Assembly (NCBI GenBank): GCA_905479945.1
Contig: CAJQOP010000002.1
Coordinates: 62,001-126,000, forward strand
From: an uncultured Glaciecola sp.
Lineage (GTDB): Bacteria; Pseudomonadota; Gammaproteobacteria; Enterobacterales; Alteromonadaceae
Length of the DNA: 64,000 nucleotides
Reading direction: 5' to 3'
The notes beneath the pieces were generated by a model that was given only the letters and a program-made list of their open reading frames with translations, made no database searches and had not been told where the DNA came from. The position numbers were made by a program, and so were the translations under genes. The number at the start of each line of letters is the position of its first letter. Position 1 is the first letter of the stretch. Below are positions 7,367-17,804 of this stretch, piece after piece.

Positions 7367-10300
7367 CTAAGCGCTTGCAGTCAGTTGTTTTCTGAGCTTG
7401 TAGAAAGTGGGCTCGCTGACACCTAGTAAGGCCGCAGCTTTTGACATATTCTCTGGTTGGCTTTGTATGATGGAAGACAGCAGCACTTGCTTTATGTTGT
7501 CCAAGCATTCTGGAATGAGGATCTCTCCGCTAGCAACAACCTGAAGACAACGTCTTATCTCTTCCCATGATTCAGGTTTTTCTGTTGTTTGCGATTGCAG
7601 GTTTAGCAAAATTTTGTTTACTCTGCGCCTTGCCGTGCTTGTTGGCAATTGTAGCCTCGTTGCTAGATCACGCATATTGCCGCTGCATGACTGGTAAGTC
7701 ATTACCAGAAGTTCATCTTCAATCATATTGCCAAGCGAGCAATGCATAAAAGACGGCTGAAACCGAATTTCATCAAGAAATCCTAGTGCACAGGTTTGTA
7801 AGCTTTCGAAAAACGAATTAACAGCTTTGTTTTGCTTAAATCTACTGTCATTTGATTCTAAATTAACAATGTCTGCGCTCTTTATATTCTCACCAATATT
7901 TTTCGAGTGGGAGTGGGTGTGGGAGTGCGAGTGCGAGTGCGAATAGCGGGACGAGTTAGCCGTTGAATCTTCATTGCTTGTCAGCGGCTTTTCAACCAGC
8001 GTTTGTTCAATATAACTTTGTTCAATATAACTTTGCTCATAAAGTGCAGAAGTTGGCGGCGAGGGATCTTGAAGTTGATGCTTTGTTTTTTCTTCATTAA
8101 AAGCGCTTCTCGATTCAGCATCACTAAGTGATGCAAATTCCTGCTCAAGATTGAGTTCATCAATGGTTATTTCATCGCTCTCTGATAGCAGTGTTGCCTG
8201 CATCAGTTTATTTTCCAATTCTCTTACATTACCGGGCCAAGGATAGCGCCTCATTAATGCCAATGTTTCGGGTGAAAGAAATTTCTTTCCAGTCTCAAAC
8301 TGTTTTGAGAACTTGTTCAAAAAATGTTGTGCTAGTAACAAGAGATCTTCGCCTCGCTCGCGCAACGGAGGGTTATTTAGAGTAACCACGTTAAGACGGT
8401 AATACAGATCTTTTCTAAATCGCCCTTGCTCAACTTCAAGCGCTAAATCGCGGTTGGTTACAGCGACTATCTTAACATTAACATCAATAACTCGTGTTCC
8501 GCCCACGGGTGTAAATTGCTTTTCTTGCACAAAACGCAGTAATGTAGGCTGCATCTGAAGGGGTAACTCACCAATTTCATCGAGCACAAGCACGCCACCA
8601 TCGGCTTCTTGGATTTTTCCTGCCGTGGCTTTCTGTGCGCCTGTAAAGGCGCCTTTAATATAGCCAAACAATTCTGATTCAATCAAAGTTTCTGGTATCG
8701 ATCCGCAATCTACAATAATCAGCGGTTTGTTACTTCTTGGGCCTAAGGTGTGAATTGCGTTAATTAAGCGTTCTTTCCCTGTGCCGCTCTCACCCGTTAT
8801 TAGTATAGTTGTGTCGGCAGATGCGGCGCGTTGAGTTTGTTTCATGATTGATTGCATCAGCGGTGATTTATAGACCAGCGCACTTGAAGACAATCCACCT
8901 TTAAGCTCTTGCAATTCACTTTCAAGTCGCGCATTCTGATTTTCCAGACGTTTATTGAGGTCTTCCTCAAGTTGACTTCGACGCAAGGCTTTGCCAATCT
9001 GACGTACGAAACCTTGAATCAGTATTTTGGTATCATGAGTGAGAACAAAGCGAGACGATTCACCAATTATAAAGAAACAGTCGTCAGTATTTATTTCAAG
9101 AGGTAACACCCAATAGGTATCATCTAAGAGGATAAGATCTTGCTGCTTTTTGTTATCTTTGGCTAAGTGAATTTGTTGTTGGAGCGTTTTATCAGCGAAA
9201 ATTTTAGTCGTCGGCACAGCCTTGGCGATAGCATTCTCATCTACTTCAAAACACAGTGAATTACCTTTATGTTCTGTTGAAGGCGCTCGCCATAGTCCAG
9301 CCGCATTAAAATCAAAGGTATTGGCTAGTCGCTGAACAACATGTTGAACTAATTTTTCAAAATCAAATTCGTCGGTGATGATGCTTGAAATATCCCAAAG
9401 CAACAACATGTTACGATAATTAGTCATTGTATCCGACGTGAATATTCCGCCCAAATAATTGAACTGCTCAGCGTTAATGCTAAATTGTGCTGCCTGCCAA
9501 ATGATAACAGAGGAGGTTTCTTTTGATTGAGCGGCCTGAAGCGCTTGTTCGCTTCTATTCATCAGCACAGTTGCTTTATCAATATCCGCATTGTTAGGCT
9601 CATCAAATTCTACTACTGCGACACCCACTTTAAAATCCAATTTTATGGGTGCGCCATCGTTAGTATTGCCTGCAAGGTAGGATTGTTGACGTAGATATTG
9701 TTGCAGTTTATTGCCAAGTACTTCCGCTTCCTTGAGGCTATTTGTAGCAGAAGCCACAGCAAATAATGCACCGCCAAGACGACTTATGGTATCGGCCCCG
9801 CGAGTACATGAGCTTATATGCTCGGCAATTTCATTCAAAAGAATATCGCCAACCTGGATGCCATATTTCTTATTAATAGCTTGAAATTCGCAGCAATGAA
9901 CCAAGCAAAGTACAACATTATGCTTGTCGGATAACTGATTTATTTTTTGCAGTAGTAAGCTTCTAGCATTTAATTTTGTTAGTGGATCGGACACCAATTG
10001 ATGGTGCTCAGATGTCATCTGCAACAATAAATTGCCGGTACGCAGCAAACTTAGCAGTATGCTTTGTTGTTCGGATAATCTGCTTTTTGTATTGCTGTGC
10101 CTTAAATTGACAATCCATCCGGGCACACGCCCTTGAAAATACAAACATAAAGTATAGCGGCTTGATTCGTCTTGTTCATCAAGGGCTTTTCTTTCTATCA
10201 CTTTTCTTTTTATAAACGGCGGTGCATTTAGTCTTGAATGCTCATCTTCATTGCTTTTCAGTGGAATCGAACTTGTCATTGACGTTTCGATCCACAACAT

Positions 10301-10525
10301 ATGTTTTGCATCGCTAGCAAACTTAAATTGCCCTGACTTGTCGGCGTAAAAGTCGTCTGAATTGGCACGATTAGTTGGATTAATCGATTTAGAAGCAAGT
10401 TTAGTATCACCAACTTGTAAACCATTATGCGTTCGTGAATAGTGGCTAGCAACGGAAATTAAGTCAGCACCAGTCTGAAGACGCAAGGCTTCTAGGTGAC
10501 TGAAAAGTACTTCATTTCCTCGCAA
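7367..10525 (-). CDS. Large sigma-54-dependent activator with degenerate GGDEF, GAF-like, AAA+ and Fis-type HTH domains
   Basis: This is an enhancer-binding protein of about 1052 residues. Order: an unassigned N-terminus, a GGDEF-like domain (about 170-340) with SRLGGALF in place of GGDEF and therefore no cyclase activity expected, a GAF-like region (about 365-535), a short coiled coil, and an AAA+ sigma-54 activation domain (about 555-790). The AAA+ domain has Walker A GESGTGKE, an intact GAFTGA loop and Walker B LVLDEIGE. A low-complexity linker contains a His/Ser repeat and a duplicated EQSYI. The C-terminus has two HTH-like segments (MRDLATRLQLPTSTARRR and SKAAALLGVSEPTFYKLR). The frame has no ATG near its beginning; the TTG at 10525 follows GGAG by six bases and is preferred to the TTG at 10537. 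The target is unknown. A sigma-54-like promoter occurs at 1867 upstream of the protease. Confidence 0.85.
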   Translation of the reverse strand: MRGNEVLFSHLEALRLQTGADLISVASHYSRTHNGLQVGDTKLASKSINPTNRANSDDFYADKSGQFKFASDAKHMLWIETSMTSSIPLKSNEDEHSRLNAPPFIKRKVIERKALDEQDESSRYTLCLYFQGRVPGWIVNLRHSNTKSRLSEQQSILLSLLRTGNLLLQMTSEHHQLVSDPLTKLNARSLLLQKINQLSDKHNVVLCLVHCCEFQAINKKYGIQVGDILLNEIAEHISSCTRGADTISRLGGALFAVASATNSLKEAEVLGNKLQQYLRQQSYLAGNTNDGAPIKLDFKVGVAVVEFDEPNNADIDKATVLMNRSEQALQAAQSKETSSVIIWQAAQFSINAEQFNYLGGIFTSDTMTNYRNMLLLWDISSIITDEFDFEKLVQHVVQRLANTFDFNAAGLWRAPSTEHKGNSLCFEVDENAIAKAVPTTKIFADKTLQQQIHLAKDNKKQQDLILLDDTYWVLPLEINTDDCFFIIGESSRFVLTHDTKILIQGFVRQIGKALRRSQLEEDLNKRLENQNARLESELQELKGGLSSSALVYKSPLMQSIMKQTQRAASADTTILITGESGTGKERLINAIHTLGPRSNKPLIIVDCGSIPETLIESELFGYIKGAFTGAQKATAGKIQEADGGVLVLDEIGELPLQMQPTLLRFVQEKQFTPVGGTRVIDVNVKIVAVTNRDLALEVEQGRFRKDLYYRLNVVTLNNPPLRERGEDLLLLAQHFLNKFSKQFETGKKFLSPETLALMRRYPWPGNVRELENKLMQATLLSESDEITIDELNLEQEFASLSDAESRSAFNEEKTKHQLQDPSPPTSALYEQSYIEQSYIEQTLVEKPLTSNEDSTANSSRYSHSHSHSHTHSHSKNIGENIKSADIVNLESNDSRFKQNKAVNSFFESLQTCALGFLDEIRFQPSFMHCSLGNMIEDELLVMTYQSCSGNMRDLATRLQLPTSTARRRVNKILLNLQSQTTEKPESWEEIRRCLQVVASGEILIPECLDNIKQVLLSSIIQSQPENMSKAAALLGVSEPTFYKLRKQLTASA
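7904..7943 (-). repeat. Hexanucleotide repeat encoding a His-Ser tract
   Basis: GAGTGG/GAGTGC-type units (plus strand) encode alternating Ser-His residues (SHSHSHSHTHSHS) in the linker between the AAA+ and HTH parts of the activator. It could bind metal or simply be a slippage product. Confidence 0.8.
8004..8033 (-). repeat. Tandem 15-bp duplication in the activator linker
   Basis: Two adjacent copies of TGTTCAATATAACTT (plus strand), in frame, duplicate five residues (EQSYI) in the same low-complexity linker as the His-Ser tract. Confidence 0.8.
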
Positions 10526-10676
10526 ACTAATCTCCAAATATGAGTTTTCAATGACGTCAAAAACAGTGGTTTTCGTAACAGATTCGTTACTAAAGAGGTG
10601 TCATTACCTTATATAAACATATTTTTATCGGCGAAAAAACAGTATGATTTATACCTATATTCGAAATTTGAGCGAT

Positions 10677-13074: not shown

Positions 13075-13271
13075 GCAAAGCGAATTTTTTCTTAATTAAA
13101 TAGTTCCCTTAAATAATTGAATTAATTAAATATTTTTTTAAGTGCTGCACAAGCTGTCGTATTTATATAAATAAAGCACTGAGTCAAAATTAATTGTCAT
13201 ATATTTTTAATAAAAAACCTGTATCTTTGTATAGGTATTTTATTCTATTAATTGTTATATACGGACATACT

Positions 13272-16200
13272 ATGAAGAAGCTTAATATTTTTACCCTGCT
13301 AGTAGCAGGAAGCCTTGTCTTACCGGCGAGTGCAGATGTTTTTATATCTGAATATATTGAAGGCTCGAGCAACAACAAAGCCATTGAGATATATAATTCT
13401 GGTGACACCAACGTTTCACTAGAAAATTACACCCTTCAACTATTTTCAAACGGCAACCTCGAAGCGAATGCAACTATTTCATTAAGCGGCAATTTGGCGT
13501 CGGGTGAAGTTTATGTTGTTGTTAATAGCAGTGCCAATGCTGACATTCTTGCGTTAGCAAATATCACCTCTGGGAGCGTCAGCTTTAATGGCGATGATGC
13601 GGTAGCCCTAGTAAATGATGGTGGCGTTGTACTCGATGTATTCGGCCAAATAGGCTTCGATCCTGGCAGTTTTTGGGGTGATAATGGCGATACAACACAA
13701 AATCATACATTAGTGCGCAATCCTGAAGTACTAGCGGGCGACCCGACAGGAAGTGATGTATTTGTACCTTCTGCCGAATGGACTTTCTTTGCTTCAGATA
13801 CGACGACTAATTTGGGTTCACATTCCACAAATCAAGATCCAGTTGATCCGGTTGATCCGGTTGATCCGGTTGATCCAGTTGATCCAGTTGATCCAGTTGA
13901 TCCAGTCGACGGAGTACTAATTAGCCCATGTGTTAATTGTCCAGACTTATCACCTGTCGCAGACCCAAGCACTTTCGATGCAGCTACCTTTTATGCAGCG
14001 GTTAACGACTATGTTGCTACATTACCGGCAGAGCCGACTCAAGCACAACGCGAGCAATTAAAAGTTTTGCTCAGCAATGCTGCTAGCGCCAATCAGGTTA
14101 ACTTGAGCTACTCTCAAGTCTGGAGCGCAATGACTGCGACAGACGAAGACCCAGCAAATACCGATAATGTAATTTTAATATATTCGGGTCGTTCAATTGC
14201 TAAGTTTAGCAATGGCAGCGGTGTTGCGTCTGAGAACCCAGATAACTGGAACCGCGAACATTCATGGCCCAAGAGTCATGGTTTCCCATCACAATCGCAA
14301 GATGCTTACACCGATATTCACCACCTCCGTCCGGCTGACATTTCAGTTAACAGTGACCGCGGAAACTTAGACTTTGATAATAGCGATATTGATGTTGATA
14401 TTGGTACTGGTTTTGATGTTGTTCCCGGCTTACGCGTAGACGGCGATTCGTTCGAACCAAGAGACGAAGTCAAAGGCGACATTGCGCGCCAAATGATGTA
14501 TATGGATACGCGTTATGAAGGTGCTAGTGGTGAAGATACACCAGATCTTGTACTACTTGATCGTTTTACAACAACCAGCGAAGCCGCTTTAGGTAAGTTG
14601 TGTCGTTTAATAGAATGGCATCAAGGTGACCCTATCGATCAAACTGAAATTAATCGTCATGACAAAATTTATCAGTACCAAGGTAACCGTAATCCATATG
14701 TTGATAACGATAGCTTAGTTGAGCTAGTTTATCCTGTTGGCACTTGTGACTTAGTTGTTGACCCTGTAGATCCGGTTGACCCAGTTGATCCGGTTGATCC
14801 GGTTGATCCACCAACAAACAATAACTCACCAATACTGCTCAGTGCGATATTTGATGGTGACTTATCGGGCGGAACACCTAAAGGTGTAGAAATTTTTGTG
14901 ACTCAAGATATTGCTGACTTAAGTGTTTGCGGTATTGGCAGTGCGAATAACGGTGGCGGTTCTGACGGACAAGAATTTACCTTCCCTGCAGACGCATATT
15001 CTGCGGGTGACTTTATTTACGTTGCTAGCGAAAGCCCTCAGTTTGTCGCATATTTTGGCTTTGAACCCACCTATACATCTGGTTCAATGGCCATAAACGG
15101 TGATGATGCCGTTGAGCTATTCTGTGACGCTGTTGTCGTTGACCTATATGGCGTACCTGCAGTAAACGGTGATAATGAAACATGGGATTACACTGACAGC
15201 TTTGCAAAGCGTGTCAATAACACCCAATCAAGCGGCGCGTTCACTGAGTCAAATTGGATTTTCGCCGGTCGTTCTGCACTAGATACAATCACCACTGGTG
15301 AGTCTGTTGAGTTAGGTAGCTTTGAGCTGGTGGTAGTATTACGCGATTTATTTATCTCAGAATACGTTGAAGGCAGTAGCTTTAATAAAGTCATTGAAAT
15401 AGTCAATATTACGGGTCGTGATATCGATTTGGCTGATTATGCAATTGAAGGTTACCAAAATGGTTCGAGCGACGTAAATTATACAATTCCACTTGTAGGC
15501 TTGTTGCCAGACCAAAGTGTGTTTGTGTTGGCCAATGGCCAAGCGTCAGCCGAAATATTGGCCGTGACTGACCAAGAGGGTAACTTGCAGTTTAACGGTG
15601 ACGACTCTGTTGTATTAGTGAATACTGCAGGAGATGTTATTGACGCGATTGGTCAAATTGGTGTTGACCCCGGCAGCCAATGGGGCGTAGACCTTGTTAG
15701 TACTAAAGACAATACCATACGTCGTATGGCGAGCATTACTGCAGGTGATACCATCCCTGATGATGCTTTCGACCCTGCGCTTGAGTGGGAAGGTTTTGCT
15801 AACAATACCTTTGATGATTTAGGCAGCTACCCAGGCTTAGACACCGGCGGACCGACACTTGAAATAGGCCTTTGTTTTGAAAATGCGACATTCATTAGTG
15901 AAGTTCAGGGCAGCGGTGGATCTACTCCCTTAAGCGGTCAAGAAATTATTGTTGAAGGCGTAATAACATTGAGTGCTGACGCCTTAGGTGGGTTCTTCAT
16001 GCAAGAAGAAGATGCTGACCAAGATGCTGATCCAGCCACCTCTGAAGGCTTATTCGTTGAAACTTCTGATACAACGGGGCTTTTGGTAGGCGATGTAGTT
16101 CGTGTCAAAGGCATTGCGGGCGAGCAATTTGGTAAGACGCAAGTCGTTGCTAATGAAATAGCTCCAATATGTGCGCAAGGTTCCGTAAGCCCAGCAGTAT

Positions 16201-17804
16201 TTAATTTACCTTTGGCTGCAGACGCTAACATTGAAGCATTAGAAAATATGCTTGTGGTTAATACCGATGACTTTATTGTAACCGGCTTGCGTTCGTATGC
16301 TCTCTTCGGTGAAGCCGTTGTGGCCAGTAAGCGTTTGTTTAAACCAACGCATTTGTTCTTGCCTACGTCAGCAGAGGCTGCAGCACTAACCGAAGAAAAC
16401 GAACGTAACCAGTTCATCTTAGATGACTTAGCCAACGGCAGTAATAACCCCACGGTTAATTTTGGTCCACTGTCGACGGTTAATCCTTTGAGAACAGGTA
16501 CAATAGTATTCAGTTCTGAATATGTGATGGATTTTAGTTTTAGTAACTATCGTTTGCGTCCGACCAACGGCTTAAATTATCAACTTGAGCAACGTCCAGC
16601 TGCTCCTGTAGTTGATGGTAATATCAAAGTGGCAAGCTTCAATGTCTTGAACTTGTTCAACGGTGACGGTGTCGGCGAAGGCTTCCCAACAGCGCGTGGT
16701 GCTGACAATATAGCTGAGTATGAATTGCAGCTTGCGAAAATTGTACAAGCCTTAGTTCAAATGGACGCAAGTGTGGTTGGTTTGATGGAAATCGAAAACG
16801 ACGGTTATGATAGCCAAAGTGCTATAGCCCAGTTGGTTGATGCTTTGAACGCAGAGTATGGTGCTAATTTGATTAGCTTCGTAAATGCAACGACCGCTCA
16901 AGGTACAGACGCAATATCAGTCGGCATTATCTATCGCAATGACTTGGTTTCGCCTATCGGTGCGGTAGAAATCCTAGATTCAAGCAACAGTATTGTTGAC
17001 ATTGATGGCCCGTTGTTTGATAGCAACCGCAACCGTCCGTCGTTTGCGCAGTTGTTTGAAGTTACCGAAACTGAAAGCACGTTTGTAATCAATGTTAACC
17101 ATTTGAAGTCGAAAGGTAGCAGTTGTGGCGCCGGTGATGACGATGGCGACTTTGGCCAAGGTAACTGCAATCTTACCAGAACGCGTGCCTCACAGGCATT
17201 GCATATATGGTTAAGCGCGACCTTTACCGATCAGCCTGTCGTTATTGTTGGTGATTTGAACTCGTACGGACAAGAGGATCCAATCACTACCTTAAATGGC
17301 GCTGGTTTTACTGACTTAGCTCGCGAGTTTAACGGTCCTATGGCTTACAGCTATTCTTTCAGCAATGAGTTTGGTTCTTTGGATTATGCTATGGCAAATG
17401 CTGAGGCCCTTGCTTTGGTTCAAACTGTGGCTGAGTGGCATATAAATGCTGACGAACCAGAAGAGTTTGATTACAACGATACGCTCCCTAGAAGCAGCAC
17501 AGTGAAACCTGCAGAGTTTTTAGATGGCTCAGCTTATCGTTCGTCTGATCATGACCCTGTTGTAATCGGTATGTTATTTGAGCGCGCCTTAATAGTAGGT
17601 GATGTGAATGGGAATGGTCGTTTAGACTTCCGCGACTTCTTTAGTATATTCCGAATTCGTGGCGCAGTTGCAGGCGACAGTCGTTACAATGAACTCGCTG
17701 ATTTGGATAACAATGGCGTGATAAATCGTCTCGATTTACGTATTTGGTTCCGCTTGTATATAGACCACCTTAGACAGTCAAGAGGCCGCTCTAGGCATCG
17801 CTAG
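13272..17804 (+). CDS. Giant secreted dual nuclease: LTD, EndA-type endonuclease, LTD, ExeM/NucH-type nuclease, dockerin-like end
   Basis: This is a 1510-residue extracellular protein. The ATG at 13272 gives a clean signal peptide (MKKLNIFTLLVAGSLVLPAS); the frame opens earlier at 13194. Order: lamin-tail domain (about 22-125), a (VDP)n linker (189-212), an endonuclease I (EndA/NucM) domain with the beta-beta-alpha metal motif NREHSWPKSHGF and DIHHLRPAD (about 220-470), a second (VDP)n linker (496-513), lamin-tail-like domains (about 520-840), an OB-fold ExeM-type domain (about 865-960) and an endonuclease/exonuclease/phosphatase domain (about 1115-1435: ASFNVLNL, LMEIENDG, NHLKSKG, VGDLNSYG, SSDHDP). 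The end has two EF-hand loops (DVNGNGRLDF, DLDNNGVINR), dockerin-like. It probably degrades extracellular DNA for phosphate or nutrients. ExeM and EndA are normally separate proteins. Confidence 0.9.
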   Translation: MKKLNIFTLLVAGSLVLPASADVFISEYIEGSSNNKAIEIYNSGDTNVSLENYTLQLFSNGNLEANATISLSGNLASGEVYVVVNSSANADILALANITSGSVSFNGDDAVALVNDGGVVLDVFGQIGFDPGSFWGDNGDTTQNHTLVRNPEVLAGDPTGSDVFVPSAEWTFFASDTTTNLGSHSTNQDPVDPVDPVDPVDPVDPVDPVDPVDGVLISPCVNCPDLSPVADPSTFDAATFYAAVNDYVATLPAEPTQAQREQLKVLLSNAASANQVNLSYSQVWSAMTATDEDPANTDNVILIYSGRSIAKFSNGSGVASENPDNWNREHSWPKSHGFPSQSQDAYTDIHHLRPADISVNSDRGNLDFDNSDIDVDIGTGFDVVPGLRVDGDSFEPRDEVKGDIARQMMYMDTRYEGASGEDTPDLVLLDRFTTTSEAALGKLCRLIEWHQGDPIDQTEINRHDKIYQYQGNRNPYVDNDSLVELVYPVGTCDLVVDPVDPVDPVDPVDPVDPPTNNNSPILLSAIFDGDLSGGTPKGVEIFVTQDIADLSVCGIGSANNGGGSDGQEFTFPADAYSAGDFIYVASESPQFVAYFGFEPTYTSGSMAINGDDAVELFCDAVVVDLYGVPAVNGDNETWDYTDSFAKRVNNTQSSGAFTESNWIFAGRSALDTITTGESVELGSFELVVVLRDLFISEYVEGSSFNKVIEIVNITGRDIDLADYAIEGYQNGSSDVNYTIPLVGLLPDQSVFVLANGQASAEILAVTDQEGNLQFNGDDSVVLVNTAGDVIDAIGQIGVDPGSQWGVDLVSTKDNTIRRMASITAGDTIPDDAFDPALEWEGFANNTFDDLGSYPGLDTGGPTLEIGLCFENATFISEVQGSGGSTPLSGQEIIVEGVITLSADALGGFFMQEEDADQDADPATSEGLFVETSDTTGLLVGDVVRVKGIAGEQFGKTQVVANEIAPICAQGSVSPAVFNLPLAADANIEALENMLVVNTDDFIVTGLRSYALFGEAVVASKRLFKPTHLFLPTSAEAAALTEENERNQFILDDLANGSNNPTVNFGPLSTVNPLRTGTIVFSSEYVMDFSFSNYRLRPTNGLNYQLEQRPAAPVVDGNIKVASFNVLNLFNGDGVGEGFPTARGADNIAEYELQLAKIVQALVQMDASVVGLMEIENDGYDSQSAIAQLVDALNAEYGANLISFVNATTAQGTDAISVGIIYRNDLVSPIGAVEILDSSNSIVDIDGPLFDSNRNRPSFAQLFEVTETESTFVINVNHLKSKGSSCGAGDDDGDFGQGNCNLTRTRASQALHIWLSATFTDQPVVIVGDLNSYGQEDPITTLNGAGFTDLAREFNGPMAYSYSFSNEFGSLDYAMANAEALALVQTVAEWHINADEPEEFDYNDTLPRSSTVKPAEFLDGSAYRSSDHDPVVIGMLFERALIVGDVNGNGRLDFRDFFSIFRIRGAVAGDSRYNELADLDNNGVINRLDLRIWFRLYIDHLRQSRGRSRHR
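13836..13907 (+). repeat. 9-bp tandem repeat encoding a (DPV)8 linker
   Basis: Eight copies of GATCCRGTY-type 9-mers encode DPV repeats separating the first lamin-tail domain from the EndA domain. Confidence 0.9.
14757..14810 (+). repeat. 9-bp tandem repeat encoding a (VDP)6 linker
   Basis: Six copies of GTTGAYCCN-type 9-mers encode VDP units after the EndA domain. This is the same linker type as at 13836, suggesting the EndA module was inserted into, or bounded by, duplicated linkers. Confidence 0.9.

Follow-up and report, generated by a model that had tools for sequence, protein, structure and literature searches.

Layout of the gene and its protein

In the 64,000-nucleotide stretch of DNA analysed here (the window), an open frame occupies 13194-17804 (+), and the ATG at 13272 is its likely start, which gives a protein of 1510 aa. 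When the translation of 13272-17804 was read by eye, the N-terminus had the appearance of a typical signal peptide. The features of the gene are as follows.

13272..13334, + strand: signal-peptide-like N-terminus, residues 1-21 (by eye from the translation)
13329..13826, + strand: lamin-tail domain 1, residues 20-185 (Pfam PF00932, best stretch 19-126)
13836..13906, + strand: (VDP)n linker, 9-bp tandem repeat, 7.9 copies, 96% matches (Tandem Repeats Finder)
13920..14747, + strand: Endonuclease I (His-Me finger) module, residues 217-492, with E329-H330 and N360 (PF04231, alignment, model)
14757..14809, + strand: second (VDP)n linker, 9-bp tandem repeat, 5.9 copies, 81% matches (Tandem Repeats Finder)
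14847..15311, + strand: divergent lamin-tail-like domain 2, residues 526-680 (matched in relatives; own clade in the lamin-tail tree)
15339..15881, + strand: lamin-tail domain 3, residues 690-870 (LTD in two stretches; 45% identical to domain 1)
15894..16601, + strand: OB-like ExeM region, residues 875-1110 (NF033681 starts at 894; weak phmmer match)
16614..17579, + strand: ExeM/NucH EEP domain, residues 1115-1436, with E1173, H1277, D1328, N1330, D1426 and H1427 (NF033681, conservation)
17592..17744, + strand: dockerin/EF-hand-like C-terminal repeat (PF00404, 23.0 bits against a cut-off of 22.9)

Both catalytic families were matched well above their curated cut-offs. Endonuclease_1 (PF04231, Pfam) was found at residues 261-479 (E 2.8e-41, 142.2 bits, cut-off 25), and ExeM_NucH_DNase (NF033681, NCBIfam) at residues 894-1434 with 544.6 bits against a cut-off of 300, which places the second module in that family. 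Pfam also detected LTD in two stretches of the 1510-aa protein (E 2.6e-32), Exo_endo_phos at residues 1122-1427 (E 2.8e-8) and Dockerin_1 at residues 1443-1490, and residues 875-956 gave a weak phmmer match to PDB 9sf8 (E 0.0017). These matches, together with alignments of 106 and 71 rows, bear out the description in an earlier note on this DNA, in which an EndA-like and an endonuclease/exonuclease/phosphatase (EEP) domain keep their active-site motifs and are flanked by lamin-tail domains. Beyond that description, the protein carries a divergent third lamin-tail-like domain (526-680) and the dockerin/EF-hand-like C-terminal repeat.

In its own genome, the fusion was the only match to Endonuclease_1 and the only match to the whole protein, and this status as the only copy is provisional because the genome is 90.5% complete. 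Among plasmid records, 78 matched, and none had a place spanning 80% of the protein. Recent transfer was considered and set aside, as the GC content of the gene (0.41-0.45 in 2-kb steps) lies inside the window range (0.38-0.45), one gene step being the window maximum. The window held six weak matches to the phosphate box, a number expected by chance, none of them close to the gene, and scans of promoters and terminators gave matches no more numerous than those in shuffled sequences. When six window neighbours (named by eye) were compared by tblastn with 12 related loci, most of them with only about 1.5 kb of flank, there were no matches. Elsewhere in the window, a large regulator-like protein at 7367-10537 (-) has a histidine-serine repeat, HSHSHSHSHTHSHS, in its C-terminal half, and metal binding by this repeat would be a guess.

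The two catalytic modules and the C-terminus

The residues E329, H330 and N360 (module positions 113, 114 and 144) were invariant across 106 aligned Endonuclease I modules, including ten classical EndA-like ones. According to two reports (PMC5758888, PMC2653514), Glu79 and Asn127 of Vvn lie at the metal, and His80 is the general base. N360 was equated with Vvn Asn127 by counting along the phmmer alignment, using a numbering offset of 18 that we derived ourselves, and E329-H330 were paired with Glu79-His80 by motif only, the sequence alignment stopping short of them. A structure model of the module built from 106 sequences reached a pLDDT of 93.8 and was used instead of an earlier, poor model built from 20 sequences (pLDDT 68.5). 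Against Vvn (PDB 1ouo), the model gave a Z of 18.7 and an rmsd of 2.5 over 174 aligned residues, with the nearest non-Endonuclease I rows at Z 4.9. The score above the cut-off, the Vvn fold in the model and the E-H and N site together place the module in the Endonuclease I family (PF04231), and at this level of family and fold the earlier label "EndA-type" is appropriate. As a statement of orthology with the EndA of Shewanella or E. coli, the label fails: the model for classical EndA / deoxyribonuclease I (NF011716) scored 29.7 bits against a cut-off of 372, which leaves the module outside that type, and the classical EndA-like rows of the Endonuclease I tree form a separate clade (support 100/99) without the window module. 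By its tree position, the module is part of a separate Endonuclease I branch, common to secreted Bacillus and Streptomyces enzymes, and is no classical EndA orthologue. On the same tree side are sequences of B. siamensis and B. pumilus, which we take to be Bsn, presumably a member of this secreted Endonuclease_1 group. An extracellular RNase named Bsn has been reported in B. subtilis (PMC6469844).

In the ExeM/NucH module, which is DNase-I-like, E1173, H1277, D1328 and N1330 were found in 71 of 71 EEP rows and D1426 and H1427 in 70 of 71, a few of these rows being one gene fetched twice (the window's own among them). In the window protein, no key residue was lost on alignment in either module. 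Kept motifs are no proof of activity, and one module could have turned into a binding domain while only the other cuts. However, across the aligned rows both modules retain the residues at their metal and general-base positions, and the model of the endonuclease module has the Vvn fold, so that we regard such a change of role as very improbable.

The C-terminus, read by eye, consists of the dockerin-like repeat, with neither a hydrophobic segment nor a GG-transmembrane-Arg signal, and the GlyGly-CTERM ExeM model (NF033680) scored 490.9 bits against a cut-off of 1300, too low for that type. The own genome has no rhombosortase over the cut-off (two weaker matches were seen), and it has the type II secretion system (T2SS) secretin GspD over its cut-off. 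Since there is no anchor signal and no rhombosortase over the cut-off and the secretin is present, the protein is likely to be exported to the medium or the cell surface. The missing anchor is no proof of release, because ExeM of S. oneidensis was located in the cytoplasmic membrane fraction and was absent from supernatants, even without its C-terminal anchor (PMC6085458). A dockerin of the cellulosome type was rejected, as PF00404 was barely over its cut-off and cohesin (PF00963) had no match in the 90.5% complete genome. In some relatives (L015 and L019), another C-terminal domain stands in place of the dockerin-like end. Given this replacement and the missing cohesin, a calcium-binding or retaining end is more likely than part of a cellulosome.

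Occurrence and origin of the fusion

The fusion is common in the family. A search gave matches in 127 of 147 family genomes (at least 20 of the 147 had none, and a congener, G002, matched in the ExeM part only), and both modules were in one frame in at least 45 of the 147 genomes and in 22 of 52 genera. This count is made up of 39 genomes read as single frames and six with two matches of one frame length (G061, G095, G096, G125, G007 and G119). Among the best 80 of more named loci, the fusion occurred in nine. Five of these share the module order of the window protein (Agaribacter marinus, an uncultured Colwellia, Alteromonas sp. KUL106, Bowmanella pacifica and Colwellia polaris), and four have it reversed. 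Across the class, 369 sampled genomes included 32 with a match to the endonuclease module and two with a fusion-sized frame, the own genome and one of its family (G001). Both modules in single proteins are thus a widespread arrangement not peculiar to this genome, and the rarity which the earlier note implied is contradicted by the family counts. The best full-length database label of the protein type is only "ExeM/NucH", and we found no account of an Endonuclease I-ExeM fusion in our searches of PMC, a weak result as subscription papers are mostly outside it.

Several family members vary the arrangement. For example, G015 (L170) has two adjacent fused paralogues of 1466 and 1114 aa, and in the shorter one no lamin-tail domains separate the nucleases. 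In G047 (L169:797-16887), a fused protein is followed about 9 kb on by a closely related endonuclease frame without ExeM, likely a secondary split or duplication. Five related "unfused" ExeM proteins (L171-L175) have Big_5 and lamin-tail domains in the endonuclease position; in four of these proteins (L171-L174) the locus start removes 24 to 103 residues, as calculated from frame lengths, which is too few for an endonuclease module. This replacement suggests that the N-terminal part behaves as an exchangeable module.

In the phylogenies of the two modules, also proposed in the earlier note, the fused endonuclease modules of the family fell mostly into one group, and the ExeM modules of fused and unfused proteins were mixed. 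The Endonuclease I tree contained 102 rows, 48 of them fused; before it was built, L071-L113 were reduced to 13 rows, and rows with E values above 1e-15, matches under 160 residues, ten repeat loci and sequence duplicates were removed. In this tree, the fused non-Bacilli rows grouped together (43 of 44, with one stand-alone row among them; 94% SH-aLRT), apart from L008, a long branch outside. A single clade of the 44 fused family rows and one secondary stand-alone row had a p-AU of 0.80 and a likelihood above that of the free tree; one origin is not rejected by this value, which is compatible with it and no proof of it. In the ExeM tree (69 rows, 48 fused), the mixing within the family required 8 changes, at least 7 of them forced by starred branches, which suggests that the fusion is dispensable and was lost, or gained, repeatedly. 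Most simply, the trees suggest one fusion for the Alteromonadaceae/Colwelliaceae forms, with later endonuclease losses and much swapping of accessory domains; they also leave room for repeated movement of the endonuclease module between ExeM genes.

The earlier note took the (VDP)n linkers as a mark of cassette insertion. We rejected this use of the repeats, because most fused relatives in the family have variable low-complexity tracts, rich in Asp, Gly and Pro, at the same place around the endonuclease. These are (VDP)-like in L035, L038 and L161, (DPG)n in L002, (DPT)n in L034 and (GGGDT)n-like in many others; the exceptions are the endonuclease-first proteins (none before the module), the short L170 paralogue (scarcely any after it) and the Bacilli forms. 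Judged by these relatives, the (VDP)n tract is one version of a fast-changing linker.

The idea of insertion itself, in which an ExeM protein that already had lamin-tail repeats received the endonuclease module between them as a cassette, was weighed with a tree of 105 lamin-tail domains. This tree has two deep clades with much mixing and weak deep branches, and domain 2 of the window protein is on a clade of its own. For the stand-alone LTD-endonuclease proteins, 15 of 16 lamin-tail domains form one clade (99%), and the N-terminal lamin-tail domains of fused proteins are apart from them, with the sole, secondary exception of L169. In the window's lineage, these N-terminal domains lie near ExeM-type domains (83 and 93%). 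This grouping counts against a plain end-to-end joining of LTD-endonuclease and LTD-ExeM proteins and is in favour of a cassette. However, ten fused relatives (L145, L146, L148, L149, L151, L154, L157, L158, L162 and L164) have the endonuclease directly after the leader, with no N-terminal lamin-tail domain, and in other fused proteins two distinct lamin-tail clades hold the N-terminal place, so that the first lamin-tail domain may have been added later. With the deep branches weak and the linker repeats uninformative, we consider a cassette insertion rather doubtful; insertion and a later gain of the first lamin-tail domain would both be compatible with the lamin-tail tree.

In Bacillaceae relatives, the two modules are joined in the opposite order. 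The frames of 1489-1536 aa in Mesobacillus (L067), Sporosarcina (L070), Bhargavaea (L082) and L095 have EEP first and Endonuclease I last. With NF033681 they score 152.9 to 204.7 bits, short of the cut-off of 300, and are therefore ExeM-related and not certified ExeM. The contig of L095 is labelled Pseudomonas sp. ISL-84 and carries a Bacillus-type ExeM-endonuclease protein; the Mesobacillus family list includes its genome (G516), and the label is probably wrong. The Mesobacillus protein has at least a partial match in 159 of the 193 genomes of that family. Among the 20 loci listed, 14 encode the two modules in a single frame (counting the loci of the query and of L095), five have no Endonuclease I in the frame, and in one (L203:1468-6010) the ExeM-like part and the Endonuclease I part lie in separate frames that overlap, perhaps through a frameshift in a fusion. 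A single clade of the fused modules of the window's family and the four Bacilli modules was rejected (p-AU 1.2e-6, in a test run on a quick tree already seen beforehand). The rejected joint clade and the opposite domain order agree, and the Bacillaceae fusion is apparently of independent origin.

The two nucleases are also encoded by separate neighbouring genes. In Shewanella olleyana (L042:1142-6961) and Ferrimonas sediminum (L044:1055-6976), the frame that comes after the ExeM-like one, on the same strand, encodes LTD-LTD-Endonuclease I, and 48 and 0 bases, respectively, separate the stop-to-stop frames. The earlier remark that Shewanella encodes these activities in separate genes is thus correct as to the separation, yet in S. 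olleyana the genes adjoin. G082 (L182:1499-8802) has an unfused row of two ExeM-like genes and one Endonuclease I frame, the latter truncated by the end of the locus.

Proposed function and comparison with known nucleases

From its domains and predicted export, the protein is probably a multi-domain nuclease with two active sites, whose modules are connected through lamin-tail domains and acidic linkers and followed by a Ca-binding-like C-terminal repeat. Its likely role is to break down nucleic acid outside the cell, as a nutrient source or to turn over the matrix. It would leave the cell by Sec and then by the type II secretion system, and the lamin-tail and OB parts may hold the substrate or the cell surface. 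The Endonuclease I module would cut internally, and the ExeM module would shorten the same molecule. Such cleavage could provide phosphorus, nitrogen and carbon for uptake, or it could loosen DNA in the matrix. The modules would have been joined once in the Alteromonadaceae/Colwelliaceae forms and separately in the Bacillaceae relatives.

The occurrence of both fusion orders and of neighbouring genes suggests a lasting partnership of the two nucleases, and this recurrent pairing, the main point of interest here, is the best evidence that Endonuclease I and ExeM belong together. We tentatively propose that the two were fused in at least two independent events, with opposite orders, that they are neighbours elsewhere, and that a single captured nucleic acid molecule is attacked in cis by both of their unrelated chemistries. 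If true, the pair would do for nucleic acids what multi-catalytic hydrolases do for polysaccharides. Selection for co-secretion alone could also account for both orders and for neighbouring genes; here, the nucleases would be independent (e.g. Endonuclease I on RNA and ExeM on DNA) and would share a signal peptide and an attachment domain, not one molecule. The position of the endonuclease module on the branch of secreted Bacillus and Streptomyces enzymes, apart from classical EndA, and the exchange of the N-terminal part, e.g. Big_5 and lamin-tail for the endonuclease, are in favour of co-secretion, and the extracellular RNase Bsn of B. subtilis (PMC6469844) would fit a role on RNA. However, split substrates are at odds with the finding that RNA, like DNA, is cleaved by S. 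oneidensis ExeM (PMC6085458), and we regard co-secretion without cooperation as unlikely.

Extracellular DNA is a part of the biofilm matrix. In marine sediments, it is also a large phosphorus source (PMC8289736). With two nuclease families fused repeatedly, the benefit of tethering nucleases becomes testable, and use of the protein as a broad-range nuclease can be speculated on. The novelty is one of arrangement within known biology: the parts are ordinary, and their arrangement is widespread.

Compared with known systems, the protein has the following likenesses and differences. First, it shares with Vvn (Vibrio Endonuclease I, PF04231, PDB 1ouo) the modelled His-Me finger fold and the E-H / N site, but its module is 26% identical over the structural alignment and lies outside the classical EndA-like clade. 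Second, the module is on the tree side of the secreted Bacillus and Streptomyces Endonuclease_1 enzymes, with about 43-53% identity over the module, whereas those of these enzymes found here are mostly stand-alone frames of about 285-680 aa. Third, the Bacillaceae ExeM-like and Endonuclease I proteins (e.g. L067 and L082) combine the window's two catalytic families in one protein; they differ in their opposite order, in their chitobiase-C/Fn3-associated spacers and in their sub-cut-off NF033681 scores. Finally, the order of lamin-tail, OB-like and EEP parts is that of ExeM of S. oneidensis and Xds of Vibrio cholerae (NF033681, NF033680). According to its description (PMC6085458), the site residues of S. 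oneidensis ExeM are E521, H642, N699, D822 and H823, the enzyme requires Ca2+ plus Mg2+ or Mn2+, and its activity depends on the OB-like and EEP parts. The window's EEP residues agree with this published list in type and order, as judged by comparison of the lists and not by alignment to ExeM. In contrast to ExeM and Xds, the window protein has an additional Endonuclease I module and extra lamin-tail domains, and its C-terminus is dockerin/EF-hand-like where S. oneidensis ExeM has a GlyGly-CTERM anchor.
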